Shown: in pieces, positions 46,962-61,968 of the stretch | Layout of the letters: the number at the start of each line of letters is the position of its first letter | Numbering within the stretch: position 1 is the first letter of the stretch | Notes under the pieces: generated by a model | Database searches by the model: none | The model's input: only the letters and a program-made list of their open reading frames with translations | Told to the model about the DNA's origin: nothing | Origin: Ideonella sp. | Lineage (GTDB): Bacteria > Pseudomonadota > Gammaproteobacteria > Burkholderiales > Burkholderiaceae_C | Length of the DNA stretch: 64,000 nucleotides | NCBI GenBank assembly: GCA_015075545.1 | Contig: JABTUC010000002.1 | Location: 372,001-436,000 of the forward strand | Reading direction: 5' to 3' | Made by a program: the position numbers and the translations under genes

Positions 46962-48872
46962 CTATGCCGGCGTCGCGGTCGCGCTGGCCGCCGGCGTGAA
47001 GGCGTCGGAGAAGCACATCTCGTCGGACAGCCCCTGGGCGACGAACGCGGGCTTGGCGGCCTGCACCATGCGCACCGAGCCGCAGGCGTACACCAAGTGG
47101 CCCGACAGGTCGGGGAAGTCGTGCAGGATCGCCTCGTGCACGAGGCCGGTGCGGCCGCTCCAGCCGTCACCGGGGCGCGGCTCGGAGATCACCGGCACGA
47201 AATGGAATTGCGGGTGCTCGCGCGCCCAGCCCTCGGCCAGCGTGCGCAGGTACAGATCCTCGGGCCGGCGCACGCCCCAGTAGAAGTGGATCGGCTTCTT
47301 GATGCCGGCGCGGAACGCCTGCTCGAGCAGGCTCTTCACCGGTGCGAAACCCGTGGCGCCGGCCACGAAGATCAGCGGCCGCGGGCTCGGCTCGCGCAGC
47401 ACGAAGGCGCCGAACGGCCCCTCGAACCGCAGCGTGTCGCCGACTTTCATGCGCTCGAACACCTGTGTCGTGAACAGCCCTTCGGGCATGCGCCGCACGT
47501 GGAGGTCGAGCTGGTGCTCGCTGCCGCTGGGCGTGGTGAACGAATAGGCGCGGCGCTGGCCGTCGGGCAGCACGATCTGCAGGTACTGCCCGGCCTGGAA
47601 CGCGATGCGCCGGCCCTGCGCCAGCGTGAGCGTCAGCTTCATCACCTCGGGGGCCAGCAGCTCCAGCGCGGTCACGGTGGCCTCGTAGGTGGCGTCGGCA
47701 TGCGGCACGATGGCGTCGGGCGCGAGTTCGATCTCCACATCGGACAGCGCCGTGGCGCAGCACAGCAGGATGTCGCCGTGCGCGCGCTGCTCGGGGGTGA
47801 GCGACGACGCGGTGTCGCCGCCGTCGTCGACGTGGCCTTGCAGCAGGTGCACGCGGCAGCGCCCGCAGCCGCCCGAGCGGCACTCGAAGGGCAGCGTCAG
47901 CTCGGCGCGCAGCCCGGCGTCGAGCAGCGTCTCGCCGGCACGCGCGGCATAGCTCGCCGCCCCCGGATGCAGCGTGACCTGCCACGCCGACACGCTCTTG
48001 TCCAGCCGCTTGGGCGGCAGCCACGGCAGCGCCACCGCCAGCAGCGTGAGCCCGCCGACCACGCCCCACAACGCCAGCGCGTGACCCTGCTGCACCAGCG
48101 GCAGCACCGACAGGTAGAACCAGTCCAGCGATACCCGCTGCGGCAGCGAGGCGAACTCCGCCGCGCCCTGGCTCACCACCGGCCGCGCCAGCGACAGCGC
48201 CAGCAGCATCACGACGAGCCCGATCGCCAGCGGCCGCGGCGGGATCACGCGCGCGCGCGGCACGCGCTGCACGTGGATCCACAGCGCCGCCAGCGCCGCC
48301 AGCGGAATGCCGATGTGCAGGAACTGCAGCAGCGAGAAGAAGCGGTCGCTGATCGACTCGGGCAGGATGAAGTTGCGCACCAGCGTGCCGCGAAACGCCG
48401 GCAGCGCGTCGAACCACTCGGCCACGCTCACCACGGTGTACTGCGCCAGCCGGTCCCACGGCAGCATGTAGCCGTTGACGCCGCTGACGTACACCAGCCA
48501 CAGCAGCACCATGCCGGTGATCCACGAGAAGGCGCGGAAGCTGCGGTAGCGGTCGAAGCAGAAGTGGCGCGCCAGGTGCAGCAGCATCGTCAGCACCATC
48601 GCGTCGCTGGCGTAGCGGTGCACGCTGCGCATCACGCCGCCGAGCCACCACTGGTTGTGCGTGAGGTGCTCGACCGACGCGTAGGTGGTGTCGACGCCGG
48701 TCTCGTAGAACGCGTAGAGGTAGAAGCCGCTGACCGTGACCAGCGCGAACATCAGGCAGCTGATCGTGCCCAGGTAGTACAGCGGATTGGTCGCGTTGCC
48801 GAACAGCCAGTTGAACAGCCGGTCGGCCAGCAGAAAGAGGCGGCGGCCGACGGCCGGGATGAGGCGCAGCAC
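46962..48872 (-). CDS. Cytochrome b fused to 2Fe-2S ferredoxin and FAD/NAD(P)H reductase
   Basis: 636 residues, three modules. Residues 25-290 form a b6-type cytochrome b with two bis-His hemes: His85/His99 on one helix and His186/His200 on another, each pair 14 apart. Residues 295-385 are a plant-type ferredoxin (Cys331, 336, 339 and 371). Residues 395-620 are a ferredoxin-reductase domain with FAD motif RRAYSFTTPSG and NAD(P) motif FVAGATGFAPVKSL. This predicts transfer between NAD(P)H and the membrane hemes/quinone. The cytochrome part is paralogous to that of the protein at 53294. GTG start. It is divergent from the heme-copper operon across an FNR-box region. Confidence 0.88.
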   Translation of the reverse strand: MLRLIPAVGRRLFLLADRLFNWLFGNATNPLYYLGTISCLMFALVTVSGFYLYAFYETGVDTTYASVEHLTHNQWWLGGVMRSVHRYASDAMVLTMLLHLARHFCFDRYRSFRAFSWITGMVLLWLVYVSGVNGYMLPWDRLAQYTVVSVAEWFDALPAFRGTLVRNFILPESISDRFFSLLQFLHIGIPLAALAALWIHVQRVPRARVIPPRPLAIGLVVMLLALSLARPVVSQGAAEFASLPQRVSLDWFYLSVLPLVQQGHALALWGVVGGLTLLAVALPWLPPKRLDKSVSAWQVTLHPGAASYAARAGETLLDAGLRAELTLPFECRSGGCGRCRVHLLQGHVDDGGDTASSLTPEQRAHGDILLCCATALSDVEIELAPDAIVPHADATYEATVTALELLAPEVMKLTLTLAQGRRIAFQAGQYLQIVLPDGQRRAYSFTTPSGSEHQLDLHVRRMPEGLFTTQVFERMKVGDTLRFEGPFGAFVLREPSPRPLIFVAGATGFAPVKSLLEQAFRAGIKKPIHFYWGVRRPEDLYLRTLAEGWAREHPQFHFVPVISEPRPGDGWSGRTGLVHEAILHDFPDLSGHLVYACGSVRMVQAAKPAFVAQGLSDEMCFSDAFTPAASATATPA

Positions 48873-48994
48873 GGACTGGGATTCTGGCGCAGTGGCGAGT
48901 GGCCGGCATCCTGAAGGCCCGCGCCGAGTGCGGGTTTGATGCCTCTCAAGCTTTCGTTGCTTCGGCGTGACACCGCCGCGGCGATGCCGAAAAG

Positions 48995-49036
48995 TTGAAC
49001 CAGTTCAATTTGCCTTGCGGGCGTGCTGCCTAGAGT
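48995..49036 (+). promoter_or_regulatory. FNR/DNR box with class II promoter for the heme-copper operon
   Basis: TTGAACCAGTTCAA at 48995-49008 is a perfect palindrome of the FNR/DNR/NNR type. TAGAGT at 49031-49036 starts 29.5 bp from its centre, placing the box at -41.5 of a start near 49043. The first gene begins at 49069. The divergent cytochrome b-reductase gene starts 123 bp away on the other side but has no matching -10. Confidence 0.82.
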
Positions 49037-49068
49037 GCCGACCACATCCGAACCGAGGAGAACCGATC

Positions 49069-49248
49069 ATGGCCGACCCCGCAGCGCCCGAGCCCGGCGA
49101 AGACGAAGGCCGCATCCCCGCGATGCAGCATCTGCTGGAAAACCCGTTCCTGCTGCTGTTCATCGGCGTGGCGATGCCCACCGTGCTCTACATCGTGTGG
49201 GGCGTGATGGAGATCGCCGGCATCCCGATCAGCCCGCTGGGCAAGTGA
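49069..49248 (+). CDS. Small membrane protein at head of heme-copper operon
   Basis: 59 residues with GAGGAG before ATG 49069. A hydrophilic acidic N-terminus (ADPAAPEPGEDEGRIPAMQHL) precedes one membrane helix (FLLLFIGVAMPTVLYIVWGVMEI). Small single-helix subunits are common partners of B-type (ba3-like) heme-copper enzymes, and this gene is only 12 bp before the CuA subunit gene, so it is probably an accessory subunit. No specific family was recognised. Confidence 0.75.
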   Translation: MADPAAPEPGEDEGRIPAMQHLLENPFLLLFIGVAMPTVLYIVWGVMEIAGIPISPLGK

Positions 49249-49260
49249 GAGAGGGAACAC

Positions 49261-49800
49261 ATGAGCGCCATCCTCCCGCCCGCCAGGCGAATCTGGTGGA
49301 AGCAGCCGGTCGACAAGGTCGAGATCGTCTGGATCGCCATCGCCTTCATCTGGTGCATGGTGATGTTCTTCATGATGCCGTACTGGCACGTGTACGGTAA
49401 GCAGAACCTCTCGAACGAGACCTACCGCGTCAAGCCCGAGCAGTTCTCGCGCGCGGCGCAGGAGATGGTCGACAAGTACACCGTGCGCACCGAGACCGAC
49501 GAGAAGATCCCGGTGGTCAAGCCGCCGGTGGGCTCCGACGTCTTCCTGATCGCGCGCCTGTGGGCCTGGTGGCCGATCCTCGAGCTGGAACAGGGCAAGA
49601 CCTACCGCCTGCACCTCACCGCGATGGACTACCAGCACGGCTTCTCGCTGCAGCCGGAGAACATCAACATCCAGGTGGTGCCCGGCTACGAGCACGTGGT
49701 GACCGTCACGCCCAACCGGGCCGGCACCTACGCCATCGTCTGCAACGAGTTCTGCGGCATCGGCCACCACAAGATGGTGACCAAGCTCTACGTCAAATAA
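49261..49800 (+). CDS. CuA-containing subunit II of a heme-copper NO reductase/oxidase
   Basis: 179 residues. One N-terminal membrane helix (VEIVWIAIAFIWCMVMFFMMPYW) anchors a periplasmic cupredoxin domain. The CuA site is complete: His126 (DYQHGF) and the loop CNEFCGIGHHKM giving Cys161, Glu163, Cys165, His169 and Met172. One-helix CuA subunits are typical of ba3-type oxidases and of their NO-reducing relatives. The order small protein, subunit II, subunit I, and nearby SenC resembles the norSY-senC clusters described in ammonia oxidisers, so this is the NorS position. Confidence 0.9.
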   Translation: MSAILPPARRIWWKQPVDKVEIVWIAIAFIWCMVMFFMMPYWHVYGKQNLSNETYRVKPEQFSRAAQEMVDKYTVRTETDEKIPVVKPPVGSDVFLIARLWAWWPILELEQGKTYRLHLTAMDYQHGFSLQPENINIQVVPGYEHVVTVTPNRAGTYAIVCNEFCGIGHHKMVTKLYVK

Positions 49801-49809
49801 GAGGGTGAC

Positions 49810-51507
49810 ATGACGACCATCGCGGCCATGTTCCGTGTCTGCCCCCGCTCGGGGCTGCAATTCCACAAGTCGGCCGAAACGCTGATCAAGCTCAACGCAG
49901 TGGCTGCCGTGGTGGCGCTGCTGCTGGGCGGCGTGCTGGCGCTGCTGATCACGCTGACGCGCTGGCAGGCGGTGCACCTGACCGATGCCGAGACCTTCTA
50001 CATGATCCTCACCGCGCATGGTCTCGACATGCTGGTGATCTGGATCATCTTCTTCGAGATCGCGGTGCTGTACTTCTGCTCGTCGACGCTGCTGCGCTGT
50101 CGATTGGCGGCGCCCAACTGGGCCTGGCTCGGGTTCGCACTGATGGTGATCGGCACCATCGTCTTCAACGTCGCGATCTTCACCGGCAACGCCTCGGTGA
50201 TGATGACCTCGTACGTGCCGCTGCCGGCCAACCCTTCCTTCTACCTCGGGCTGATCCTGTTCGCGGTGGGGGCGCTGATCGGCTGCTTCGTCTTCCTCGG
50301 CACGCTGGTGATCGCCAAGGCCGAGAAGACCTACCAGGGCTCGATCCCGCTGGTGACCTTCGGCGCGCTGACGGCATGCATCATCGCGATCTTCACGATC
50401 GCCTCGGGCGCGATCATCCTGATCCCGACCTTCCTGTGGTCGCTGGGCTACATCAAGAGCATCGACCCGCTGATGTACCGCACCATCTGGTGGGCCTTCG
50501 GCCACAGCTCGCAGCAGATCAACGTCAGCGCGCACGTGGCGGTGTGGTACGCCATCGCCGCCATCGTGTTCGGCGCCAAGCCGATGAGCGAGCGCGTGTC
50601 GCGCGGCGCGTTCCTGCTGTACATCTTCTTCCTGCAACTGGCCAGCGCGCACCACCTGCTGAGCGACCCGGGCCTGTCGGTCGAGTGGAAGGTGTTCAAC
50701 ACCAGCTACGCGATGTACCTGGCGGTGCTGGCCTCGATGATCCACGGCCTCACGGTGCCCGGTGCGATCGAGATCGCGCAGCGCGAGAAGGGCTACACCA
50801 AGGGGCTGTTCGAGTGGGTGCGCAAGGCGCCGTGGGGCAACCCGGTGTTCTCGGGCATGTTCATCTCGCTGATCGGCTTCGGCTTCCTGGGCGGCATCTC
50901 GGGCGTGATGATGGGCACCGAGCAGCTCAACATGCTGATCCACAACACGCTGTACGTGCCGGGGCACTTCCACGCCACGGTGGTGATCGGCACCACGCTG
51001 GCGTTCATGGCGCTGACCTACTTCCTGCTGCCCACGCTGTTCAACCGCGAGGTGATCATGCCCGGGCTGGCCAAGTGGCAGCCCTACCTGTTCGGCGGCG
51101 GCATGGGCGTGTTCTGCCTGGCGATGATGGGCGCCGGCACGCTCGGCGTACCGCGGCGGCACTGGGACATCACCTTCGCCGGCGCGGCACTGCCGTACGA
51201 GTTCCCCGGCTCGGCGTGGCTGATGATCGCGATCTTCGCGATCGGCGGCATCCTGGCGGTCATCGGCGGTGGAGCCTACATCCTGATCACCGTCGGCTCG
51301 CTGCTGTGGGGCAAGCGGCTCGACGCCGGCGCCTACGGCACCACCGGCACCGTGCTGAAGATGCCCGCGCTGGTCGGCCACGGCGGTCACGGTGGCGGCT
51401 TCGCGGCACCGGGCACCTTCGTGTTCGCGCTGGTGTTCCTGACCGCGTTCGTGCTGTACTACTTCGTCAACTGGAAGTACCTCTCGACCGTCTGGGGTCT
51501 GAGCTGA
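49810..51507 (+). CDS. Heme-copper catalytic subunit lacking the active-site Tyr; probable NO reductase
   Basis: 565 residues, about 13 membrane helices, B-type (ba3-like) architecture. Low-spin heme His70 (LTAHGLDML). Helix VI reads FGHSSQQINVSAH: the metal-ligand His232 is present, but the residue four positions on, Tyr in oxygen reductases, is Gln236. His281-His282 (ASAHHLLSDPG) and the heme ligands His386/His388 (VPGHFHATVV) are intact. Loss of the Tyr is a hallmark of NO-reducing members. Context (CuA subunit, Sco, FNR promoter, heme d1 genes) supports NO reduction, NorY-like. Oxygen reduction without Tyr is unlikely. Confidence 0.85.
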   Translation: MTTIAAMFRVCPRSGLQFHKSAETLIKLNAVAAVVALLLGGVLALLITLTRWQAVHLTDAETFYMILTAHGLDMLVIWIIFFEIAVLYFCSSTLLRCRLAAPNWAWLGFALMVIGTIVFNVAIFTGNASVMMTSYVPLPANPSFYLGLILFAVGALIGCFVFLGTLVIAKAEKTYQGSIPLVTFGALTACIIAIFTIASGAIILIPTFLWSLGYIKSIDPLMYRTIWWAFGHSSQQINVSAHVAVWYAIAAIVFGAKPMSERVSRGAFLLYIFFLQLASAHHLLSDPGLSVEWKVFNTSYAMYLAVLASMIHGLTVPGAIEIAQREKGYTKGLFEWVRKAPWGNPVFSGMFISLIGFGFLGGISGVMMGTEQLNMLIHNTLYVPGHFHATVVIGTTLAFMALTYFLLPTLFNREVIMPGLAKWQPYLFGGGMGVFCLAMMGAGTLGVPRRHWDITFAGAALPYEFPGSAWLMIAIFAIGGILAVIGGGAYILITVGSLLWGKRLDAGAYGTTGTVLKMPALVGHGGHGGGFAAPGTFVFALVFLTAFVLYYFVNWKYLSTVWGLS

Positions 51508-51534
51508 GCGCGCGCTGACGAGAAGAGGCACCCG

Positions 51535-52434
51535 ATGAACACGGTCACCCTCCAACGCCGCAGCGGCCGCTTCGCTGTGCGCCAGGTGCTGTCGCTGTTC
51601 AAGCTGCGCATCGGCGTGGTGATCGCGATCACCGCGCTGGGCGGGGTCGCGGTACAGCCCGGGGCGGGCCCGGGCTGGGCTGCGGTGGCGGCGCTGTTCG
51701 GCTGCGTGCTGCTCGCCTCGGCCGCCGCAGGCGCCTTCAACCAGTGGTGGGAGGTCGACCTCGACCGCACGATGCGCCGCACCCGCGGCCGGCCGTTCGC
51801 CACCGGTGCGCTGCAGCCGCACGCCGGCTGGCTGGTGCTGATGGCCGCGATGACGGCGCTGGCCGGCCTGGCAGCCTGGGCCGTCACCAACGCGGCCGCC
51901 GCCGTGTACACGGTGGCCGGCGCGCTCGTCTATGCGGTGGTCTACACCGTGTGGTTGAAGCGCCGCACCTGGTGGAACATCGTGATCGGCGGGCTGGCCG
52001 GCAGCTTCGCGGTGCTCGCCGGTGCGGCCGCGGTCAACCCCGAGCTGTCGCTCGAGGCATGGCTGCTGACGGTGGTGCTCTTCCTGTGGACGCCGCCGCA
52101 CTTCTGGAGCCTGGCGATCGCCTGCCGCGACGACTACGCGGCCGCCGCGGTGCCGATGCTGCCGGTGGTCAAGGGCGACCGTGTCGCCGCCTTCGCCATC
52201 AGCGCGCATGCGCTGGCCCTGGCGCTGCTGGGGCTGGCGCTCGGCGTGGTCGCCGACAGCCTGGTGGTCACGCTGGCGGCGCTGGCCGGCGGCGGCTGGT
52301 TCGTGATCGAGGCCGTGCGGCTGCAACTGCAGCCCACACGCGCGCGCGCCATGCGCAGCTTCTTCGCGTCGCTGGCGCAGCTCACGCTGCTGCTGGTGGG
52401 CGTGATGCTCGCCGCGGCGATACCCGGGGTCTGA
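51535..52434 (+). CDS. ctaB: Protoheme IX farnesyltransferase (heme O synthase)
   Basis: 299-residue UbiA-fold prenyltransferase with about eight helices. The first Asp-rich motif is FNQWWEVDLDRTMRRTRGRPF and the second region is FLWTPPHFWSLAIACRDDYAAAAVPMLPVV. It farnesylates heme b to heme O. Its place in this operon implies that the adjacent catalytic subunit carries heme O or A rather than only heme b; a CtaA-like protein follows at 56843. Confidence 0.93.
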   Translation: MNTVTLQRRSGRFAVRQVLSLFKLRIGVVIAITALGGVAVQPGAGPGWAAVAALFGCVLLASAAAGAFNQWWEVDLDRTMRRTRGRPFATGALQPHAGWLVLMAAMTALAGLAAWAVTNAAAAVYTVAGALVYAVVYTVWLKRRTWWNIVIGGLAGSFAVLAGAAAVNPELSLEAWLLTVVLFLWTPPHFWSLAIACRDDYAAAAVPMLPVVKGDRVAAFAISAHALALALLGLALGVVADSLVVTLAALAGGGWFVIEAVRLQLQPTRARAMRSFFASLAQLTLLLVGVMLAAAIPGV

Positions 52435-52436
52435 GC

Positions 52437-53297
52437 ATGCGCCGCGCGGTGCTCGCAGCGGCGCTGCTGGTCGCCGTGGCGGTGCACGCGCGGTCCGCGC
52501 CCGGACTCGCCAGCACGGTTGCACTGGGGCCTGCGCAGCCGGTGGCTGCTGGCGCGGCCGCGCCGGGCTGGACCGACGCGCTGCGCGCCAGCCAGGCGGC
52601 GATCGGTCGCCCGCTGGAGGCCGACGGCATCGCCCGGCTCGAGCTGCGCGACGCGCTCAACCAGCCCGTCACGTTGGCCGACTACCGCGGCAAGCCGCTG
52701 GTGGTGAGCTTCATCTACACCGGCTGCTTCCAGGCCTGCCCCATCACCACGCAGCGCCTGGCCGAGGGCGTGAAGGCGGCGCGGCAGGCGCTGGGCGCCG
52801 ACAGCTTTCGCGTCGTCAGCATCGGTTTCAACCAGCCGTTCGACGACCCGGTGGCGATGGGCGCGTTCGCGCGCCAGATGCGCATCGCCGACCCGCAGTG
52901 GCAGTTTCTGTCGCTGGCAGCGGCCGACGTGCCGCGGCTGACGCAGGCGTTCGGTTTCTCGTTCACCGCCACGCCCAAGGGTTTCGATCACCTGGCGCAG
53001 CTCACGGTGGTCGACGCCGGCGGCAGGATCGCCGCCCAGGTGTACGGCGAGAACTTCGAGCTGCCGATGTTCGTCGGCCCGCTGAAGGATCTGATGTCGG
53101 GCCAGGCCGCGCAGCAGCTCGACCTCGAGAGCGTGTGGCGCAAGGTCAAGCTGTACTGCACGGTGTACGACCCGGTGGCCGGCAACTACCGGCTCAACTA
53201 CTCGCTGTTCTTCGAGATCTTCTGCGGCGTCACCGTGCTCGCCGGCGTGGCGATCTTCATGCTGCGCTCGCTGCGAAGACCGCGCGTCGCGCGATGA
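52437..53297 (+). CDS. SenC/SCO1-family copper chaperone
   Basis: 286 residues: signal peptide, thioredoxin-like Sco domain with the copper motif Cys97-x3-Cys101 (TGCFQACP) and His185 (GFDHLA), then an unusual extra C-terminal membrane helix (FFEIFCGVTVLAGVAIFMLRSL). It should load the CuA site of the operon's subunit II. Starts two bases after ctaB and overlaps the next gene by ATGA. Classical Sco proteins are N-terminally anchored, so the C-terminal anchor is noteworthy. Confidence 0.9.
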   Translation: MRRAVLAAALLVAVAVHARSAPGLASTVALGPAQPVAAGAAAPGWTDALRASQAAIGRPLEADGIARLELRDALNQPVTLADYRGKPLVVSFIYTGCFQACPITTQRLAEGVKAARQALGADSFRVVSIGFNQPFDDPVAMGAFARQMRIADPQWQFLSLAAADVPRLTQAFGFSFTATPKGFDHLAQLTVVDAGGRIAAQVYGENFELPMFVGPLKDLMSGQAAQQLDLESVWRKVKLYCTVYDPVAGNYRLNYSLFFEIFCGVTVLAGVAIFMLRSLRRPRVAR

Positions 53298-54835
53298 CTG
53301 GCGAGGCGGGTCGCGCGGCACGCTCCGTGCGTGCCGCCGAGCGTGCCTTCGACGCCGTCTTCGGCCTGCGCGCCAACCCGCTGCGCCAGCTCGGCGCGCT
53401 GGCCTTCTGGATGCTGTGGATCGTGGTCGCCAGCGGCTTGTGGATCTACGTGCTGTACGACACCAGCGTCGCCGGTGCCTGGCGCTCGGTGAACGACATG
53501 ACCGAGCATCAGCCATGGGCCGCCGGCCTGATGCGCAGCCTGCACCGCTACGCCAGCGACGCGTTGATCGTGCTGACCACGCTGCACCTGCTGCGCGAGG
53601 CGCTGCTCGGGCGCTTCCGGCGTTTTCGCTGGTTCAGCTGGGTCAGCGGCGTGCCGCTGCTGCCGCTGGCGATCGCCTCGGGCATCGTCGGCTACTGGAT
53701 GGTGTGGGACCAGCGTGCGCTGGCGACCGGCGTCGCGCTGTTCGAGTGGTTCGCGCAGCTGCCCGGCTTCGGGCTGGCGATGGTGCGCAACTTCATCGAC
53801 CCGCAAGCCGTCACCGACCGCTTCTTCAGCCTGCTGGCGTTCACCCACATCGGCCTGCCGCTGCTGCTGCTGCTGGGTGCCTGGGCGCACCTGCTGCGGC
53901 TGGCGCGGCCGCAGACGCAGCCCGCCGCACCGCTGGCGGTGGGCAGCCTGCTCGCGCTGCTGGCGTTGGCGCTGCTGTGGCCCGCGCGTTCGATGGCGCT
54001 CGCCGACGTGCTGCACTGGCCGGCGCGCATCGACCTCGACTGGTTCACGCTCGGCGTGCTGCCGCTGGCCGAGGCGGCGCCGATCTTCACCTGGCTCGCG
54101 CTGGTGCTCGGGATCGGCGCGCTGCTGGCGATGCCCTGGCTGCCCGGCGCGCCGCCGGCGCTGCCGGTGGCGGTGGTCGACCCCGCGCATTGCAACGGCT
54201 GCACCTGGTGCTTTGCCGACTGCCCGTACGGCGCGATCACGATGGTGCCGCACCCCAACGCGCGCGCCGGTGCGCGGCTGGCGCAGGTCGATGCCGATCT
54301 GTGCGCCGGTTGCGGCGTGTGCGTCGGCGCGTGCCCGTCGGCCACGCCGTTCCGGCGCGGCGCACCGCTGGCCACCGGCATCGATCTGCCTGCACCGGCG
54401 CTGGCCACGCTGCGTGCGCGACTCGACGACGCCCTCGATGCGCTCGATGACCCTGAGGCCACCAAGGTGGTGGTGCTGGGTTGCGACAGTGCCGCGCGAC
54501 TCGACGACGCGCCGCCCGGCACCGTGATGCTCACGGCCCCGTGTACGGCTCAGTGGCCCCCGGTGTTCATCGAGTACGCACTGCGGCGCGGCGTCGATGG
54601 CGTGCTGGTGACGGGCTGCCCGCCGGGCGATTGCCAGTGGCGGCTCGGTGCGCGCTGGGTCGAGCAGCGCATGGCCGGGCAGCGGATGCCGCAGTTGCGC
54701 AGCCAGGTGCCGCGCGAGCGCGTGCGCTTGCACTGGGCCTTGACCGGGAGCAAGGCAGACCTGCTGCACGAGGTGCAAGCTTTCCACCGTGCGCTGGCGG
54801 CCTTGTCGCGGCCGCGCGTGCCAGAAGACGCCTAG
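53294..54835 (+). CDS. Cytochrome b fused to dicluster ferredoxin and MvhD-like domain
   Basis: 513 residues. Residues 30-285 are a b6-type cytochrome b with His84/His98 and His185/His199. Residues 292-352 form a ferredoxin with two [4Fe-4S] sites (Cys300, 303, 306, 310 and Cys337, 340, 343, 347). Residues 388-470 match the MvhD/hydrogenase iron-sulfur subunit (GCDSA Cys397, PCTAQ Cys417, GCPPGDC Cys442 and 447), a domain linking flavin and ferredoxin modules in Hdr complexes. This combination suggests electron exchange between a soluble ferredoxin or flavoprotein and the quinone pool. It is coupled to senC. Confidence 0.87.
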   Translation: MTGEAGRAARSVRAAERAFDAVFGLRANPLRQLGALAFWMLWIVVASGLWIYVLYDTSVAGAWRSVNDMTEHQPWAAGLMRSLHRYASDALIVLTTLHLLREALLGRFRRFRWFSWVSGVPLLPLAIASGIVGYWMVWDQRALATGVALFEWFAQLPGFGLAMVRNFIDPQAVTDRFFSLLAFTHIGLPLLLLLGAWAHLLRLARPQTQPAAPLAVGSLLALLALALLWPARSMALADVLHWPARIDLDWFTLGVLPLAEAAPIFTWLALVLGIGALLAMPWLPGAPPALPVAVVDPAHCNGCTWCFADCPYGAITMVPHPNARAGARLAQVDADLCAGCGVCVGACPSATPFRRGAPLATGIDLPAPALATLRARLDDALDALDDPEATKVVVLGCDSAARLDDAPPGTVMLTAPCTAQWPPVFIEYALRRGVDGVLVTGCPPGDCQWRLGARWVEQRMAGQRMPQLRSQVPRERVRLHWALTGSKADLLHEVQAFHRALAALSRPRVPEDA

Positions 54836-54845
54836 ACCAAACCCG

Positions 54846-55349
54846 ATGCCCAACTTGCTGCGATACCTCGGTCAGTTCGTTGCCTATGCGGCCTTCGCCG
54901 CGGTGATCGGCGTGTTCGCCACCTGGCCGGCGCACCGCCTGCTCGGGCCCGACCAGGCGTTGCTGCGGCTGTCGTTCTCGCACCCCGGCAAGGTCAGCAC
55001 CGAGTGCCGTCAACGCACGGCCGAAGAGCTGGCGAAGATGCAGCCGCAGATGCGCACGCCGCTCGATTGCCAGCGCGAGCGCTCGCCGGTGCAGGTGCGT
55101 GTCGTGCTCGACGACCATGTGCTGATCGATCGCGCCTACGCACCGGCCGGCCTGTCGCGCGACGGCGCCTCCAGTGCCTACTGGCGCGAGCCGATCGCCG
55201 CCGGCACGCATCGCCTGTCGGTGACGCTGCGCGACGACCTGCGTCCGGGTGCCCCCGCCTACCACGACGAAACCACGCTCGACGTGAAGCCCGGGCAGAT
55301 CGTGCTGATCGACTTCAAGCCCGAGCAGGGCGGCGTGGTGATCCGATGA
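54846..55349 (+). CDS. Membrane-anchored periplasmic protein of unknown function
   Basis: 167 residues. An N-terminal helix (FVAYAAFAAVIGVFATWPAHRLL) leads to a periplasmic beta-rich domain with two Cys (STECRQRT and TPLDCQRE) and repeated strand patterns (PVQVRVVLDDHVLIDRAY, THRLSVTLRDD). It overlaps the divergent heme-copper subunit gene by ATGA, implying a fixed stoichiometric partnership. It could take the place of an electron-donor or assembly subunit, but it has no heme or copper motif. I do not recognise the family. Confidence 0.8.
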   Translation: MPNLLRYLGQFVAYAAFAAVIGVFATWPAHRLLGPDQALLRLSFSHPGKVSTECRQRTAEELAKMQPQMRTPLDCQRERSPVQVRVVLDDHVLIDRAYAPAGLSRDGASSAYWREPIAAGTHRLSVTLRDDLRPGAPAYHDETTLDVKPGQIVLIDFKPEQGGVVIR

Positions 55350-56827
55350 GCCGGCCGCTGGGCAGCGCTCGCGAATCGCGCACGCCGCGCACCGAGTCGC
55401 TCGTGAGCGCAGCACCGCCGCTGCGCGGCGCATGGGCGTGGCCCGCCTATCGCTACGAGCTGGCGGTGCCCGCCGGCGAGCAGCGCGCGCTGGCCAGCGC
55501 CTGGCTCGCGCTGGCCACCGCGGCGCTGATCGGCTCCGGCCTGTTCGCGCTGTTGCTGGTGGGCGCGCGCACGCCGGGTGTCAACGCGCTGCTGCCGGGG
55601 GTCGATTTCTTCCACGTGGCCCTGGTCGTGCACGTCGACCTGTCGGTGCTGGTGTGGTTCCTGGCGATGGCGGGGCTGCTGTGGTCGCTCGCCGGCTCGC
55701 AGCGCTGGCTGGCGCTCGGCTGGGCGGGCTTCACGCTGAGCGCGCTGGGCGCGCTGGTGATGACGCTGGCACCGTTCTTCGGCGCCGCGGCGCCGGTGAT
55801 GTCCAACTACGTGCCGGTGCTCGACGATCCGCGCTTCCTGTTCGGGCTGGCGCTGTTCGGTGCCGGCATGGCGCTCACCTGCCTGCGGGCGCTGGCGGTG
55901 CCGGGGCGCGTCGGCATGACGTTGCCGGGTGCCGGCGTGCTGCGCTTCGGCCTCAATGCCGCGGCGGTGGCCACCGCACTGACGCTGATCGCGCTGGTCT
56001 GGTCGGCACTCGCGCTGCGCAACGGCACCGCCGCGGGCCTGCAGGGCAAGCCCTACTACGAGCTGCTGTTCTGGGGTGCCGGCCACGTGGTGCAGTTCAC
56101 CTGGACGCTGCTGATGCTGGTGAGCTGGCTGTGGCTGGCCAGCCGCATCGAGGCGCTGCTGCCGCTGTCGCCGCGGGTGGTGCTGCTGCTGTTCGGCGTG
56201 GCGCTGGTGTCGGTGTTCGCGACGCCGGTGATCTACCTCGCGTTCGAGGTCGGCTCGGTCGAGCATCAGCGCATGTTCACCTGGCTGATGCGCTTCGGCG
56301 GCGGGCTGGCGATCGTACCGATCGTGCTGGCGCTGGCGCTCGCATTGTGGCGAGCGCCCACTTGCCCGCTGGATGCGCGGCCGCTGCGCGCCTGCCTGCT
56401 GGCGTCGGTGACCCTGTTCTGCGTGGGCGGGGCGATCGGCTTCCTGATCCAGGGCAGCGATGTGCGCGTGCCCGCGCACTACCACGGCGCCATCGTCGGC
56501 GTGACGCTGGCGCTGATGGGCGCCACCTATGCGCTGCTGCCGGCGCTCGGGCTGGGCCAGCCCGGTCGCCTGGCGCGCTGGCAGCCGTTGCTGTACGGCG
56601 CGGGGCAGCTGATGCACATCATCGGCCTGGTGTGGTCCGGCGGCTATGGCGTGCAGCGCAAGGTGGCGGGCGCCGACCAGGTGCTGCGCACCCCGCAGGA
56701 GGTGGCCGGCATGGGGCTGATGGGGCTGGGTGGCCTGGTCGCGATCATCGGCGGGCTGCTGTTCGTGGTGGTGGTGCTGCAGGCGGCGCGCCGCCGCGCC
56801 GCGCCGGCCGCGCGCCAGGCTGCCTGA
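55346..56827 (+). CDS. Highly divergent heme-copper oxidase-like catalytic subunit
   Basis: 493 residues, about 12 helices. Helix II has His96 (VVHVDLSVLVW) as low-spin heme ligand. Helix VI reads GAGHVVQFTW with His247, Gln250 and Phe251, so the Tyr position is Phe. The usual His-His pair is His307-Gln308 (SVEHQRMFTW). The heme ligands remain as His378/His380 (VPAHYHGAIVG). Thus the three-His copper site and the Tyr are both altered while both hemes look retained. This fits an NO reductase-like or non-catalytic electron-transfer role; no family name can be assigned with confidence. It is coupled to the upstream anchored protein. Confidence 0.8.
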   Translation: MSRPLGSARESRTPRTESLVSAAPPLRGAWAWPAYRYELAVPAGEQRALASAWLALATAALIGSGLFALLLVGARTPGVNALLPGVDFFHVALVVHVDLSVLVWFLAMAGLLWSLAGSQRWLALGWAGFTLSALGALVMTLAPFFGAAAPVMSNYVPVLDDPRFLFGLALFGAGMALTCLRALAVPGRVGMTLPGAGVLRFGLNAAAVATALTLIALVWSALALRNGTAAGLQGKPYYELLFWGAGHVVQFTWTLLMLVSWLWLASRIEALLPLSPRVVLLLFGVALVSVFATPVIYLAFEVGSVEHQRMFTWLMRFGGGLAIVPIVLALALALWRAPTCPLDARPLRACLLASVTLFCVGGAIGFLIQGSDVRVPAHYHGAIVGVTLALMGATYALLPALGLGQPGRLARWQPLLYGAGQLMHIIGLVWSGGYGVQRKVAGADQVLRTPQEVAGMGLMGLGGLVAIIGGLLFVVVVLQAARRRAAPAARQAA

Positions 56828-56842
56828 GGGCGCGCGCCGGCG

Positions 56843-57679
56843 ATGCGCGCGCTGCTGTGGCTGGCGTTCGCGCTGGTGCTGGTGGTGTGCCTGTGCAGCG
56901 CCGCGCTGCGCCTGTCGGGCGCCGCGGTCGCCTGTGCCCCCGCCCCGGCGTGCCTGGCACCACAAGCCGCCGGCGCGCCGGCGGTCGGCACGGGTGCGGC
57001 TGCCGGCGCCCAGGCCGAAGGCCCAACGGTTGCATCGGCCACGGCGCCGGCCAACACCGGCTGGCAGCGAACGCTGCGACTGACGCACCGCGTCACCGCG
57101 TCGCTGGCCGGTCTGGTGTTCCTGTTCATCGTGGCGTTCGGGTTCGCGCGCTGGTCGATCAGCGAGCGCATCGCGGGGCTCTCGCTGCTGGCGCTGACGC
57201 TGCTGCTGGCGCTGGTGGGGCGCATCACGCCGTCGCTGTCGGCTGCGGTGGGGCTGGTCAACCTGCTCGGTGGCCACCTGCTGCTGGCCGCGCTGGCGTG
57301 GCTGCTCGCTGCGCGCGCCGGCGACCTCGTGCGCTGGGTCGGCGCGCCGCTGTTCGTCACGGTGGTGCTTGCGTCGGCCACCGGCTCGGCCGTGGCTGCG
57401 CCCGGTCGCGGCGGGTGGCTGACCGTGCATGCGGCGCTGGGCGTGGTCGTGGTGGCGCCGCTCGTCGCTGCGGTCTGGCGGCTGCGCCGCGCAGGCATGG
57501 GCGGCGGCACGGTCGCTGTCTTCGCGATCACGACGGCGCTCGCCGCCGCCATCGCCGCCGCGCTCGGTCTGGTGCTGCTGCGGCCCGGCGGGCCGTGGCC
57601 GGTCGCGCTGGTGCATAGCGCCGCCGGCGGCCTCGTGCTCGCCGGCTGTGCCGCACTCTGGCGGAGTTCGCGGCGCTGA
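56843..57679 (+). CDS. CtaA/COX15-like heme A synthase family membrane protein
   Basis: 278 residues with about eight helices and a low-complexity Ala/Pro-rich first loop with a Cys pair (CAPAPAC), like the Cys loop of CtaA. Candidate heme-ligand histidines occur in the expected places: LTHRVTASLAGLVF, NLLGGHLLLAAL, TVHAALGVVVV and LVHSAAGGLVL. Full-length CtaA is usually longer with better-conserved His motifs, so this is a diverged member. With ctaB upstream it suggests local synthesis of heme A or a related heme for these enzymes. Last gene of the operon before the regulator. Confidence 0.75.
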   Translation: MRALLWLAFALVLVVCLCSAALRLSGAAVACAPAPACLAPQAAGAPAVGTGAAAGAQAEGPTVASATAPANTGWQRTLRLTHRVTASLAGLVFLFIVAFGFARWSISERIAGLSLLALTLLLALVGRITPSLSAAVGLVNLLGGHLLLAALAWLLAARAGDLVRWVGAPLFVTVVLASATGSAVAAPGRGGWLTVHAALGVVVVAPLVAAVWRLRRAGMGGGTVAVFAITTALAAAIAAALGLVLLRPGGPWPVALVHSAAGGLVLAGCAALWRSSRR

Positions 57680-57713
57680 GTCGAGGCGTCGCCGACCCCG
57701 GCGCGGACGCCCG

Positions 57714-57727
57714 TTGACTTTTAGCAA
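57714..57727 (+). promoter_or_regulatory. FNR/DNR-like box upstream of the Crp/Fnr regulator gene
   Basis: TTGACTTTTAGCAA matches eight of ten FNR-family positions (TTGAC-N4-AGCAA) and lies 56 bp before the regulator ATG, suggesting autoregulation or control by another Fnr protein. The sequence at the expected -10 (AAGATG, 57750-57755) is poor. Confidence 0.5.
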
Positions 57728-57782
57728 CCCGTCGCCGCGGCGGTGGGCGAAGATGGGGCCCCGGACCGCCGGCGAGCATTGC

Positions 57783-58598
57783 ATGCAAGACACCGCCTTC
57801 GACCTGCCGCGTTACCTCGCCGCCCTGCCGCTGTTCAAGGACATGCCGGCCGAAGCGCTGGCGCGCGTGGCGGCGGGCACCCGGGTCTGCCGCTTCGCCC
57901 GTAACGACACGTTGTTCCGGGTGGGCGCGCCGTGCCAGGAGTTCTTCATCGTGGTGTTCGGCCAGATCAAGATGTTCGCGCTGTCGGCGGCCGGGCAGGA
58001 GAAGGTGCTCGAGCTGGTGGGCCCGGGCATGAGCTTCGCCGAGGCGCCGATGTTCGTCGGCGGCATGCACCGGGTGAGTGCGCAGGCGCTGGTCGACTCG
58101 CTGCTGCTGGCGGTGGGCAAGCCGACCGTGCTCGACGAGATCGCGCGCGACCCGGGGCTCGCGCTGCGCATGCTGGCGGGGCTGTCGCGCCGCCTGCACC
58201 GGCTCAACGAGGACGTCGAGGCCAGCGCGCTGCATACCGGCCTGCGCCGCGTCGCCGATTACCTGCTCAACGAGTTGCAGGAGGCCGGCGTCGGTGCGCG
58301 CGCGGTCTCGCTGCCCGCCAGCAAGGCGACGATCGCGCTGCGCCTGTCGCTGACGCCGGAGTACTTCTCGCGCATGCTGCACCAGCTCGAATCGGAAGGG
58401 CTGATCCGCATCGACAAGCGCGCGATCACGATCACCAACGCCGAATGCCTGCGCACCTACTCGTCGCTCGGTGCGGGTGCGCCGGAACCGCCGTGCCACA
58501 ACGGCGTCCAGTGCCTGCGTGCGCAGGCCAAGCAGCGCGGCAAGGCCACTGCGCCGTGCCCCGCTGCGTCGCGCGCGGCGACCGCGCGCAGCGCCTGA
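57783..58598 (+). CDS. Crp/Fnr-family regulator, Dnr-like
   Basis: 271 residues. The cyclic-nucleotide-like sensor domain spans 10-125, the long dimer helix about 125-150, and a Crp-type winged helix 175-215 (SKATIALRLSLTPEYFSRMLHQLESEGLI; the Glu-Ser-Arg-like ETFSR motif here is EYFSR). No N-terminal four-Cys set is present, so it does not bind the FNR [4Fe-4S] cluster; this fits Dnr/NnrR heme-based NO sensors. A 40-residue C-terminal extension with Cys238, 244 and 259 is unusual. Lying between the heme-copper operon and nirN, it is the likely regulator of both. Confidence 0.88.
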   Translation: MQDTAFDLPRYLAALPLFKDMPAEALARVAAGTRVCRFARNDTLFRVGAPCQEFFIVVFGQIKMFALSAAGQEKVLELVGPGMSFAEAPMFVGGMHRVSAQALVDSLLLAVGKPTVLDEIARDPGLALRMLAGLSRRLHRLNEDVEASALHTGLRRVADYLLNELQEAGVGARAVSLPASKATIALRLSLTPEYFSRMLHQLESEGLIRIDKRAITITNAECLRTYSSLGAGAPEPPCHNGVQCLRAQAKQRGKATAPCPAASRAATARSA

Positions 58599-58610: not shown

Positions 58611-60209
58611 TCAGTGCGACGTGCCCTCCGAGCGCGTGATCTTGTTGAACACGTTGTACTTGCCCACCGGTTTGCTCATCGGCAGGCGCTTCACCTCGGT
58701 GAACGTCGCCGCGTCGTAGACCACCAGCGCGCCGTCGGCCTCCCACACGCTGGCCAGCGCGTGGCGGCCGTCTTTCGTGAACTCGATGTGCGCCAGCGTC
58801 CTGCCGGGTTCGCGCACCTGCGCCACCACCTGCAGCGTGCGCTTGTCGACGATGGTCAGCGTGTCGCGGGCGCCCGCGCTCATCATCGAATCGACCCAGG
58901 CGTACGGCGTCTTCTCGTGACTGCGCACGAAGAAGCCCGGGCCCGGCGTGGCGATGGTCTTCAGCGGCTTCCAGGTCTTCATGTCGATCACGTCGAGCGC
59001 TCCGTCCTTCAGATTGGGGCTCATCAGCACCGTGGTGCCGCCCCACGCGAAGGTGATGCCCGAGCCGAGGTGAGGCATGCCCGCGATCGGCAACTCGGCG
59101 ATCTTTCGCCGCACGTCGAGGTTGATCACCTGCGCGGTCGGCGTGCCGTCGGCCCGCGGGCGCGTCGCCCCGAGCACGTGCGCGTAGCCCTGGTCGAAGA
59201 AGAAGTCGTCCAGCGGCTGCTCGAGCTTCGTGCGCCGGATGCCGAGGAAGCCGGGCCTGGCGACGGCCTCGCCCATGCGGTAGTCGTGCACCAGGCCGTC
59301 GTGGATCGGCTCGGCCTTGGGGTCGTACGAGATCTCCCACAGCTCCGGCAGATCCTTCAGCGCGACGATGAAGCTCGAGCGCGGCTGTGCGTCGTATACC
59401 GCCGACACGCGCGAGGTCGACCGGCCGTCGGCGCCGGCGGCGGCGTAGGTTCTCACCAAGTTCAACTGCGCGTCGAACAGCGCCAGCGTGTGCGGAAAAT
59501 AGTTCGCCGCCAGCACCCACCGGCCGTCGCCGGACACCGCGACGTTGCGCATGTTCAGACCCGCGCGCACCTCGGCGACGATCGTGAGGTTCCAGAGGTC
59601 GACCTTGGTGATCCAGCCGTCGCGCGAGCCGAAGAACACGTGGCGCCCGTCGGGCGTGAACTTCGGTCCGCCGTGCAGCGCGTAGCGGCTGGCGAAGCGG
59701 TGGATCGGCTCGAAGCGGTCGCCGTCGACCAGGCTCACGTGGTGGTCGCCGCCTTCGACCACGACGAACAGGTTCATCGGGTCGGCGCTCCACTGCGGCT
59801 TGGCCGGCAACCTGTCGGCGCCGGGCGTCTCGATGCGCGAGGCGCGGATGTCGGCCTCGCTCCAGGTGGGCGCCGGCTGCAGCGGCGTGTAGATCCAGGC
59901 TGCCAGTGCCTGCAACTGCGCCGCGCTCAACTGCTCGGCAAAGCCCGGCATCTGCGTGGCCGGCCGCCCCTGGCCGATGACCTTGGCCGCCTCGGGCCGG
60001 CGCAGGCGCTCCAGGCTCTCGGGCAGCAACGCCGGGCCCATGCCGCCGGTGCGCTGCGTGCCGTGGCAGGCGGCGCAGTGCTGTCGATACAGCGCTGCCG
60101 CATCGAGCGACGCCGCGCTCGCATCCTGCGCGCGCGGCGCGGTCGGCATCGCCGCCAGCGCCACCAGCGCAGCGAAAGTACCGGCCGGCGCCCACCGCCG
60201 CGGCGTCAT
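58611..60209 (-). CDS. nirN: NirN: heme d1-binding cytochrome c, dihydro-heme d1 dehydrogenase
   Basis: 532 residues. A signal peptide of about 28 residues is followed by a cytochrome c domain with Cys45-x2-Cys48-His49 (QHCAACHG) and an eight-bladed d1-type propeller (residues 140-520; MNLFVVVEGGDHHVSLVD, GGPKFTPDGRHVFFGSRDGW). NirN catalyses the last step of heme d1 synthesis, oxidising dihydro-heme d1. The end of a nirFDLGHJ series favours NirN over the nitrite reductase NirS, which heads such operons. Start overlaps nirJ by four bases. Confidence 0.87.
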   Translation of the reverse strand: MTPRRWAPAGTFAALVALAAMPTAPRAQDASAASLDAAALYRQHCAACHGTQRTGGMGPALLPESLERLRRPEAAKVIGQGRPATQMPGFAEQLSAAQLQALAAWIYTPLQPAPTWSEADIRASRIETPGADRLPAKPQWSADPMNLFVVVEGGDHHVSLVDGDRFEPIHRFASRYALHGGPKFTPDGRHVFFGSRDGWITKVDLWNLTIVAEVRAGLNMRNVAVSGDGRWVLAANYFPHTLALFDAQLNLVRTYAAAGADGRSTSRVSAVYDAQPRSSFIVALKDLPELWEISYDPKAEPIHDGLVHDYRMGEAVARPGFLGIRRTKLEQPLDDFFFDQGYAHVLGATRPRADGTPTAQVINLDVRRKIAELPIAGMPHLGSGITFAWGGTTVLMSPNLKDGALDVIDMKTWKPLKTIATPGPGFFVRSHEKTPYAWVDSMMSAGARDTLTIVDKRTLQVVAQVREPGRTLAHIEFTKDGRHALASVWEADGALVVYDAATFTEVKRLPMSKPVGKYNVFNKITRSEGTSH

Positions 60210-61453
60210 GGCTGCTGCCCGACCGGGCGGCGCTTGCCGGCGAAAGGCGTCAACGCCACGCGCGGCGACGCTCCGGGCGCCTGCGCTGCGAGGCCGATCT
60301 CGTCGTCGTCGAGGTAGCAGCCCGGGTCTTCGGCCCAGGCGTCGCCGGTGACCTGCTGCGCGCGCACGCGCGTGTTGCCGCCGCAGATGTCGAAGTGCGC
60401 GCAGCGCGCGCAGCGCCCGCCCACCGGGCGCGGGCGCGACTTCAGCCCGCGCATCAGCGGGTCGCTGCGGTCGGCCCAGATGGCCGAGAACGGCCGCTCG
60501 CGCACGCTGCCCAGGCTGTGGTGCCACCACATGGTGTCGGGGTGCACGTGGCCGAGGTTGTCGATGTTGGCGACATTGACGCCCGAGGCGTTGCCGCCCC
60601 AGGCCACCAGGTGCTCGCGCAGCGGCCGCTGCCAGCGCCGATGCAGCTCGGGGTGCCTGCGCGCGAGCCAGTGCAGCAGGTAGGGGCCGTCGGCGTCGTT
60701 GTTGCCGGTGACGATCTCCTCCGGCAGGCCCTCGCTCGCCGCGCACCACGCGCGATCGAACAGCAGATCGAGCGCGTCGCGGGTGGCGGCGAACTGCGCA
60801 TCCTTGGCGCGGTGGATGTTGCCGCGGCCGGCGTAGTTGAGGTGCGAGAAGTAGAACTTGTCGACGCCCTCGTCGCGCATCAGTTGCAGCAGCGCGGGCA
60901 GGTCGTGCGCGTTGAGCGCGGTCATCGTGAAGCGCAGGCCGAGCTTGACGCCGCGCGCGCGCAGCAGGCGCACGGCGCGCAGGCTGCGGTCGAAGGCGCC
61001 ATCGAGGCGGCGGAAGCGGTCGTGCGTGGCGCGCAGGCCGTCGAGGCTGATGCCGACGTAGTCGAAGCCCGCGCCGGCGATGCGCTCGGCCATCGCGGCG
61101 TCGATCAGCGTGCCGTTGGTCGACAGGCCGACGAAGAAGCGCATGGCCTTGGCGCGCGCGGCGACTTCGAACAGATCGCCGCGCAGCAGCGGCTCGCCGC
61201 CCGAGAGGATCAGCACCGGCACGCGGGCGCGCCGCAGGTCGTCCATCACCGCGAACACCTCGGCCGTGTTCAGCTCGCCGGCGTAGTCGTGGTCGGCCGA
61301 CAGCGCGTAGCAGTGCGTGCAGGTGAGGTTGCAGCGGCGGATCAGGTTCCAGATCACCACCGGGCCCGCGGGCCTCGCGGTGCTCGGCAGCGGCATCGCG
61401 CCGCTGCGCTTCGCCTCGGCGAGCAGCCGCATGAAGTGCGACACGCGGAACAT
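60206..61453 (-). CDS. nirJ: NirJ: radical SAM enzyme of heme d1 biosynthesis
   Basis: 415 residues. Radical SAM motif Cys41-x3-Cys45-x2-Cys48 (RRCNLTCTHCYA) followed by LILSGGEPLLRGD; the C-terminal cluster region is SPASM-like (GGRCARCAHFDICGGNTRVRA, plus CYLDDDE). NirJ replaces propionate side chains of didecarboxysiroheme with oxo groups. The tail after about residue 375 is variable. It follows nirH by 23 bp and overlaps nirN. Confidence 0.93.
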   Translation of the reverse strand: MFRVSHFMRLLAEAKRSGAMPLPSTARPAGPVVIWNLIRRCNLTCTHCYALSADHDYAGELNTAEVFAVMDDLRRARVPVLILSGGEPLLRGDLFEVAARAKAMRFFVGLSTNGTLIDAAMAERIAGAGFDYVGISLDGLRATHDRFRRLDGAFDRSLRAVRLLRARGVKLGLRFTMTALNAHDLPALLQLMRDEGVDKFYFSHLNYAGRGNIHRAKDAQFAATRDALDLLFDRAWCAASEGLPEEIVTGNNDADGPYLLHWLARRHPELHRRWQRPLREHLVAWGGNASGVNVANIDNLGHVHPDTMWWHHSLGSVRERPFSAIWADRSDPLMRGLKSRPRPVGGRCARCAHFDICGGNTRVRAQQVTGDAWAEDPGCYLDDDEIGLAAQAPGASPRVALTPFAGKRRPVGQQP

Positions 61454-61476
61454 GGTGCGATGGCCGGGTGACCGAA

Positions 61477-61968
61477 TCAGGCGCTGTCGGCCCAGTGGCT
61501 GCGCAGCCGCAGGCCGGTCTTCTTGAGGATGGCGGTCGAGTACAGGATGTCGTGGCCACAACAAGCCGACCCGAGCAGCTTCGCGATGCCTTGCGCCTGC
61601 GCGACCACCTGGTCGCGCGAGCGGCCGTGCAGCATGACGAACAGGTTGTACGGCCAGTCGGGCAAGCGGCGCGGCCGGCGGTAGCAGTGGCTCACGCCGG
61701 GCAGCGTGGCCACCTGCGCGCCGAGCGCGTCGACCGACTCGTCGGCGACGTCCCACACGCTCATGCCGTTGGCGGTGTAGCCGAGCTTGTAGTGGTTGGG
61801 CACCGCGCCGATGCGTCGCACCAGGCCGCTGGCCAGCATGGCGGCCAGGCGATCGCGCACCGCTGCCGCGCTGACGCCGAGCATCGCGCCCACCGCCTCG
61901 TAGGGTTGCGGCACCAGCGGCAGGCCGCTCTGCAGTGCCGCCACCAGCGCGCGGTCGAACTCAGTCAT
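61477..61968 (-). CDS. nirH: NirH: siroheme decarboxylase subunit
   Basis: 163-residue Lrp/AsnC-like siroheme decarboxylase subunit. The helix-turn-helix-like N-terminus (PLVPQPYEAVGAMLGVSAAAVRDRLAAML) no longer serves DNA binding. GLVRRIGAVPNHYKLGYTANGMSVWDV carries the substrate-region His, then CYRRPRRLPDWPYNLFVMLHGRS. NirD/L/G/H together decarboxylate siroheme to 12,18-didecarboxysiroheme. ATG 61968 overlaps nirG; 61974 is an alternative. Confidence 0.87.
   Translation of the reverse strand: MTEFDRALVAALQSGLPLVPQPYEAVGAMLGVSAAAVRDRLAAMLASGLVRRIGAVPNHYKLGYTANGMSVWDVADESVDALGAQVATLPGVSHCYRRPRRLPDWPYNLFVMLHGRSRDQVVAQAQGIAKLLGSACCGHDILYSTAILKKTGLRLRSHWADSA

Follow-up and report, generated by a model that had tools for sequence, protein, structure and literature searches.

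A 64,000-nucleotide stretch of the Ideonella sp. genome (contig JABTUC010000002.1, positions 372,001 to 436,000; G000:C6:372001-436000 in our numbering, and hereafter the window), taken from an assembly that is 85% complete, carries a gene module at window positions 46962-57679 that is best explained as an FNR/Dnr-controlled nitric oxide (NO) respiration module, in which an eNOR-type reductase would be served by dedicated maturation proteins and by cytochrome b electron input. We assign this reading a probability of roughly 0.5; NO-reducing activity, electron donors, and complex formation are predictions throughout. An initial annotation of this DNA, made from the sequence alone, had proposed an unusual NO reductase system here, and translation together with family searches recovered every gene that it named, at the positions given below.

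The putative reductase core consists of three forward-strand genes: a 59-residue single-helix protein without a Pfam family, probably a small reductase subunit (49069..49248); a CuA subunit II (49261..49800; Pfam COX2); and a heme-copper subunit I, termed HCO1 (49810..51507). In HCO1, Gln236 occupies the place of the active-site Tyr of oxygen reductases and is invariant in all 25 aligned sequences, the window copy included, while Tyr is found there in 0/25. The corresponding motif reads GHSSQQIN, versus GHPEVY in the aa3 oxidase of the same genome, so the initial description of a "Tyr-less" subunit was correct. The heme and CuB ligands (H70, H232, H281, H282, H386, and H388) are all invariant in the same alignment, and six residues of the CuA subunit (H126, C161, E163, C165, H169, and M172) are kept at ≥95% across 25 sequences. 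The Gln also occurs in three HCO1 relatives, one encoded on a Defluviimonas plasmid and 63% identical, one of Thermus thermophilus (49% identical), and one of Thermomicrobium roseum (45% identical); two haloarchaeal matches and one from Geobacillus have Tyr instead. In a tree of 68 proteins, the Gln-bearing sequences form one group (100/98), in a tree with few outside rows and with long branches. The closest solved structures to HCO1 are B-family ba3-type oxidases. In Thermus and Thermomicrobium, too, the Gln-type genes come after genes for small proteins that, by eye, resemble the 59-residue protein.

PMC8756737 defines eNOR by Gln at the Tyr place (its Table A4 lists Asn for sNOR and Glu for both cNOR and qNOR), reports that many alpha-, beta-, gamma-, and deltaproteobacteria have eNOR, and includes a Thermus sequence among those handled for the eNOR alignment; PMC11388526 lists eNOR as a biochemically characterised NO reductase related to the B family. 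HCO1 therefore carries the eNOR signature. The Gln signature, this definition, and the B-family relation led us to replace the comparison with norSY-senC clusters, drawn in the initial annotation, by one with eNOR; filing HCO1 as norSY/sNOR was rejected on the basis of its Gln, where Table A4 gives Asn. Signature, ligands, and grouping together support the earlier proposal of an NO-reductase-type heme-copper enzyme, and the small protein, CuA subunit, and HCO1 would jointly form an eNOR-type NO reductase.

Downstream of HCO1, on the same strand, lie genes for the heme O synthase CtaB (51535..52434; NCBIfam TIGR01473 above cut-off), an SCO1/SenC copper chaperone (52437..53297; Pfam SCO1-SenC), a cytochrome b fusion termed cytbFdM (53294..54835), a membrane-anchored protein (54846..55349), a second heme-copper-fold protein, HCO2 (55346..56827), and a divergent CtaA (56843..57679). 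The chaperone residues C97xxxC101 and H185 are kept at ≥95% in 24 sequences. Since the genes from 49069 to 56827 either sit 2 to 27 bp apart or overlap (the SCO gene with cytbFdM, and the anchored-protein gene with HCO2), they look like a single operon. A second cytochrome b fusion, cytbNAD (46962..48872, reverse strand), diverges from this operon across a shared 196-bp intergenic region (48873..49068), just as the initial annotation had described for a cytochrome b-reductase paralogue.

To gauge conservation of this arrangement, we scanned titled genomes, in which at least 593 stretches matched, 565 of these encoding a relative; the best 80 were kept, and the 57 of these that reach ≥7.5 kb downstream of HCO1 were used as loci (23 were dropped). 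Among these 57 loci, the CuA subunit, the SCO protein, and the anchored protein were found in all 57, the small protein and HCO2 in 56 each, cytbFdM in 55, CtaB in 53, cytbNAD in 51 (within 11 kb of eNOR), divergent CtaA in 40, a Dnr-like regulator in 23, and canonical CtaA in 13. Both fusions are present in 49 loci, the MvhD type alone in 6, the NAD type alone in 2, and neither in 0. A second set of 22 loci with 5 kb of downstream sequence, which has at least one genome in common with the first, contains cytbFdM in 20, the anchored protein in 21, HCO2 in 18, and cytbNAD in 8. The order small subunit-CuA-eNOR-CtaB-SCO-cytochrome b fusion-anchored protein-HCO2 recurs in many families of the class, an arrangement far beyond chance. 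Among the isolates with the module are Simplicispira hankyongi NY-02, Paucibacter oligotrophus CHU3, Piscinibacter caeni MQ-18, and Acidovorax sp. 210-6.

At the genome level, we used a class sample of 369 genomes, that of the window included, with thresholds of E ≤ 1e-60 for HCO1 and E ≤ 1e-30 for HCO2. HCO1 was detected in 34 genomes and HCO2 in 46, and the two occur together in 28 of the 34 HCO1 genomes (overlaps counted from tables; Fisher p = 2e-23 excluding the window's own genome). A cytochrome b fusion (E ≤ 1e-20) is present in 42 of 43 genomes taken as eNOR bearing, with only the NAD type in one (G057); these 43 comprise the 33 others of the class sample plus ten relatives, for two of which (G001 and G002) eNOR is known only from weak matches to the HCO2 query. 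The initial annotation had made its proposal depend on the fusions being conserved with the heme-copper genes, and at least one fusion is present in 57/57 loci and 42/43 genomes. Also in favour of the module, HCO1 distances show a correlation with the distances of cytbFdM (r = 0.73, 22 loci), HCO2 (0.64, 19 loci), and the anchored protein (0.53, 22 loci); 0 of 2,000 permutations were as high, in a test that ignores species phylogeny, which alone could yield such correlations.

The two fusion proteins share a cytochrome b domain and differ in their cytoplasmic heads. In cytbFdM, the b domain (H84, H98, H185, and H199) is joined to two [4Fe-4S] sites and an FlpD/MvhD domain, whereas cytbNAD combines it with plant-type [2Fe-2S], FAD-binding, and NAD-binding domains (Pfam Cytochrome_B, Fer2, FAD_binding_6, and NAD_binding_1). 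The b parts of the two window proteins are 44% identical over 271 residues, and the four b-domain His are kept in each fusion (23 cytbFdM and 8 cytbNAD sequences). In cytbFdM, 4 His and 12 Cys are kept at ≥95% (23 sequences), four of these Cys being in the MvhD head; the [2Fe-2S] Cys of cytbNAD are kept in 7 of 8 long rows. The ferredoxin-MvhD part of cytbFdM matches residues 572-772 of HdrA2 (NCBIfam), and the nearest NCBIfam b-cytochrome to the b domain is ExtP. Heads were counted on 151 b-domain copies from 120 loci: 82 copies have an MvhD head, 63 a Fer2-NAD head, and 1 a diflavin head, and 5 are truncated by the locus end. The position of the heads varies: in two loci (L086 and L109) the NAD type is the sole fusion and is seated before the anchored protein, in the slot otherwise used by the MvhD type, and in others (L085, L112, and L114 among them) the NAD type also takes that slot, with the MvhD type following the anchored protein. 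This swapping suggests that the cytochrome b fusions act as exchangeable electron-input modules. The one diflavin head, a flavodoxin-FAD-NAD reductase fused to cytochrome b near an eNOR module (L055:2675-5155, reverse strand), is also the eighth long cytbNAD row and represents a third head kind.

The anchored protein has one N-terminal helix followed by a beta-rich domain, modelled as a periplasmic beta-sandwich (predicted local distance difference test score [pLDDT], 93.7), with two Cys (C54 and C75) invariant in an alignment of 22. It matches no Pfam or NCBIfam family, and its best match among PDB folds had E = 0.019, against a threshold of E ≤ 0.001; a known family or solved fold was thereby rejected. 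In one locus (L063), where the fusion is placed farther off along the contig, cytbFdM and the anchored protein form one open frame of 682 codons, and for this reason the two probably cooperate. The anchored protein may act on the periplasmic side, as a subunit for structure or docking.

HCO2 scores above the Pfam COX1 cut-off, and its structure model (pLDDT, 86.4) has the subunit I fold, with a ba3 enzyme as best Foldseek match (E = 2.1e-9). H96, H247, Q250, H378, and H380 are invariant in 29 sequences, H96, H378, and H380 being heme-ligand His. The adjacent His pair of helix VII, however, is found in 0 of 34 sequences (L080 has one single His there), which makes a normal CuB site unlikely. 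HCO2 is thus probably no reductase. The initial annotation had named it a second divergent heme-copper subunit, a description corrected by the absent helix VII pair, and HCO2 as a second reductase was rejected for its missing CuB ligands. In a profile comparison HCO2 matches eNOR (E = 3e-29), with H247/Q250 aligned to eNOR H232/Q235, and in the 68-protein tree it forms a long branch next to eNOR, so that HCO2 may have arisen by duplication.

We also surveyed the neighbours of HCO2 in the 18 class genomes that carry it without eNOR, a survey covering all of them but G126, G175, G213, G274, G361, and G424. In five of these genomes (G270, G291, G378, G396, and G408), ctaA lies within 0.7 kb. In two further ones (L070 and L072), ctaB, SCO, or cox genes adjoin, and in another (L078) a relative of the anchored protein and an SCO gene do; no such neighbour was seen among the proteins scanned at L069 and L074. 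The remaining two, L075 and L077, fall in a distant HCO2 subgroup together with L080 and L081. The neighbours of this subgroup include, in part, multiheme cytochromes with paired CXXCH motifs, proteins similar to ResB and CcsA, and a two-component system of the sigma-54 type, where families were scanned in L081 and the other loci were judged by shared clusters; this is possibly another undescribed respiratory system.

The label "CtaA-like" for the last gene of the module holds as to relationship, the protein being a relative of CtaA (Pfam COX15-CtaA, below cut-off), but it hides the replacement of two residues conserved in ordinary CtaA. The catalytic Glu, present in 31/31 canonical CtaA sequences, is Arg in 52/60 and Glu in 0/60 of the divergent set (61 rows, with one fragment of a canonical copy removed), and Asn stands in 60/60 where the TLHLLGG-type CtaA has His. 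Three other His are retained, with 1/61 rows differing at the first, as are the Cys pairs in most; the window copy is without the second Cys pair. It has Arg at the E57 place and Asn at the H123 place, in a Bacillus subtilis numbering transferred by motif and from PMC8239418 rather than by direct alignment. Many eNOR clusters are flanked, upstream or downstream, by a gene of this divergent set, which often forms a tandem pair with a gene for canonical CtaA; no CtaA was found in 5 of 61 HCO2- or eNOR-bearing genomes (G274, G318, G326, G394, and G424). An altered CtaA of this kind is already known, as Table 1 of PMC8239418 lists a betaproteobacterial variant of CtaA type 1.1 that carries both E57K and H123N. 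The presence of an altered CtaA in the module, one of denitrification, is of interest because heme A synthase requires oxygen (PMC9145763).

Control by an FNR/Dnr-type regulator, proposed in the initial annotation, is supported by FNR-like sites in the promoter region. The strict form TTGA-N6-TCAA occurs at three places in the 64 kb, two of which (48936-48949 and 48995-49008) are inside the divergent intergenic region. We used this form since the FNR pattern with two mismatches matched many sites inside genes (25 matches in the window versus 2.8 expected). A perfect TTGATNNNNATCAA site lies elsewhere, at 17263-17276. As also noted initially, a Crp/FNR-family, Dnr-like regulator (57783..58598, forward strand; Pfam cNMP_binding and HTH_Crp_2) and heme d1 genes follow the operon. 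The latter (58611..63982, reverse strand; Pfam) include cytochrome d1-domain proteins at both ends, a radical SAM NirJ-like protein, and NirDL-like proteins of the siroheme decarboxylase kind, with a nirS-like gene just beyond the window end (G000:C6:437430-438611). This context recurs: cytochrome d1 proteins (E ≤ 1e-90; matches to this family are not limited to NirS but include further proteins with a d1 domain) are present in 30 of 33 eNOR-bearing versus 42 of 335 other class genomes, the window's own genome left out. For NosZ, the sole match in the 85%-complete assembly was the module's CuA subunit, below cut-off.

Taken together, we envisage the following route. Electrons from NAD(P)H would enter cytbNAD through flavin (FAD) and the [2Fe-2S] cluster, and those of a cytoplasmic donor would enter cytbFdM by way of its MvhD domain and its two [4Fe-4S] clusters; ferredoxin, named as this donor in the initial annotation, is a conjecture. 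Both fusions would then relay electrons across two b hemes toward the periplasmic side; there, docking onto the CuA subunit may be provided by the anchored beta-sandwich protein. CtaB would supply farnesylated heme, and SCO copper, to the reductase, as expected from their families. The weakest step concerns HCO2 and the altered CtaA, which might be heme-binding helpers in making or inserting the reductase heme or else an extra heme relay; we prefer heme handling for HCO2, with low confidence. In its most far-reaching form, the module would be a self-contained NADH or Fe-S-donor:NO oxidoreductase: its exchangeable cytochrome b proteins, each with two hemes, would hand electrons of the cytoplasm directly to the CuA site of eNOR, with neither quinone nor cytochrome c in between, and HCO2 and the altered CtaA would act as a pair to make or insert an A-type heme at scarce oxygen, which ordinary CtaA needs. 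We regard this full version as unlikely.

Several observations weigh against an eNOR system with dedicated input and maturation. Gene linkage alone does not show electron flow from the fusions to the reductase, and although no c-type cytochrome gene lies within 46962-57679, a mobile carrier or quinone encoded elsewhere could intervene. HCO2 is missing from 6 of the 34 eNOR-bearing genomes, and 18 genomes carry it without eNOR; 3 of the 33 eNOR-bearing genomes have no cytochrome d1 protein. One genome (G323) gave no fusion match, its contig stopping ~20 bases past HCO1. Outside the class, the eNOR-type genes in the examined stretches of Thermus and Thermomicrobium are without cytochrome b fusions. 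Finally, the comparison behind the eNOR assignment covers Thermus, Thermomicrobium, and Defluviimonas as the non-class members of our tree; the purified eNOR that has reportedly been characterised is that of Rhodothermus marinus.

Diheme cytochrome b proteins commonly act on quinones, and the b domain of the fusions is nearest to ExtP among NCBIfam b-cytochromes. The fusions may accordingly be NADH (or Fe-S donor):quinone oxidoreductases, with quinol feeding the reductase through bc1 and cytochrome c, so that the genes would be linked by co-regulation rather than by a direct complex. We consider this route possible but not probable, given that the fusions and the anchored protein travel with the reductase gene in nearly every locus. 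HCO2 and the divergent CtaA could likewise be a heme relay built into the reductase complex as one of its structural parts, instead of helpers in its assembly. The heme-ligand His kept in HCO2, the three His kept in the divergent CtaA, and the placement of distant HCO2 relatives with multiheme cytochromes are in line with a relay, and its profile match and tree position next to eNOR are as for a duplicated subunit; in several eNOR-less genomes, however, HCO2 adjoins ctaA, ctaB, SCO, or cox genes, consistent with a part in maturation, and we find the relay somewhat doubtful. The least probable of these accounts, and a very unlikely one, is that HCO1 is a high-affinity B-family oxygen reductase for low oxygen. 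HCO1 is indeed related to the B family, and an equivalent case has been made for sNOR in ammonia oxidisers (PMC6967387), but the active-site Tyr is absent (0/25), eNOR is counted among biochemically characterised NO reductases (PMC11388526), and eNOR-bearing genomes are associated with cytochrome d1 proteins.

Compared with known systems, the module resembles eNOR in its CuA subunit, its Gln in place of Tyr, its complete metal ligands, and its B-family relation. To this it adds the cytochrome b fusions, the CuB-less HCO2, the altered CtaA, and the anchored protein. With the sNOR of ammonia oxidisers (norSY-senC) it shares a CuA subunit, a heme-copper subunit, and a nearby SCO gene, while differing at the active-site residue (Gln versus the listed Asn). 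Its likeness to cNOR and qNOR would be in the reduction of NO; unlike these, it has a CuA subunit, and Gln where Glu is listed for both. The CtaA type 1.1 variant, recorded in "Ca. Accumulibacter" and Sulfurifustis (PMC8239418, Table 1), has lost the same Glu and has Asn for His as in the module, though with Lys where the module set is mostly Arg (52/60); the available portion of that paper contains no link of the variant to eNOR clusters. The parts of cytbFdM match the HdrA2 C terminus (ferredoxin plus MvhD) and ExtP b cytochromes, here fused into a single membrane protein whose gene adjoins those of an NO reductase. We found no description of the whole module in the literature, where the main eNOR paper (Murali et al. 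2024) could hold one, and the fusions are not described in the available portions of PMC6967387, PMC8114936, PMC10734462, PMC12569097, PMC13274419, and PMC10732223.

The module is a conserved denitrifier gene set that joins eNOR to cofactor-assembly genes and to exchangeable membrane proteins that probably supply it with electrons from the cell interior; it may be a wiring of NO respiration so far undescribed. As many proteobacterial denitrifiers carry eNOR and ordinary annotation (in plasmid records) names it cytochrome c oxidase, the step forming nitrous oxide is easily overlooked. If the fusions feed the reductase directly, NO respiration could be driven from cytoplasmic donors, bypassing bc1 and cytochrome c. 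In addition, a CuB-less heme-copper protein paired with altered and ordinary heme A synthesis genes offers a testable case for the making or insertion of A-type heme under low oxygen.

A plasmid search with cytbFdM matched one Defluviimonas plasmid, and a plasmid search with HCO2 gave no match. The Defluviimonas plasmid, from an alphaproteobacterium (NZ_CP156080.1, 13.9-20.6 kb), bears a core module in the order small protein, CuA subunit, eNOR-type subunit, heme o synthase, SCO, cytochrome b fusion, a protein of the anchored protein's size, and hemerythrin. On T. thermophilus plasmid pHB5018d, genes for an Rrf2 regulator and a DUF542 protein come after those of eNOR type, with no cytochrome b fusion annotated close by. 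Among the seven COX1-family matches of the window's own 85%-complete assembly there is no clear cNOR or qNOR; by their motifs we take these to include one aa3 oxidase, two cbb3-like subunits, HCO1, and HCO2, with two more (L005 and L007) beyond these. One of the cbb3-like, CcoN-family subunits (L003, G000:C8:164995-166230) occurs besides the other (L002) in the same genome. L005 (also L177; G000:C7:287992-289329) is a heme-copper subunit with the motif HNLME, that is, Glu at the Tyr place, and GHTM, with Met where the low-spin heme His is expected; it is preceded by a frame with a CuA-like motif and followed by a copper-ATPase-like gene.

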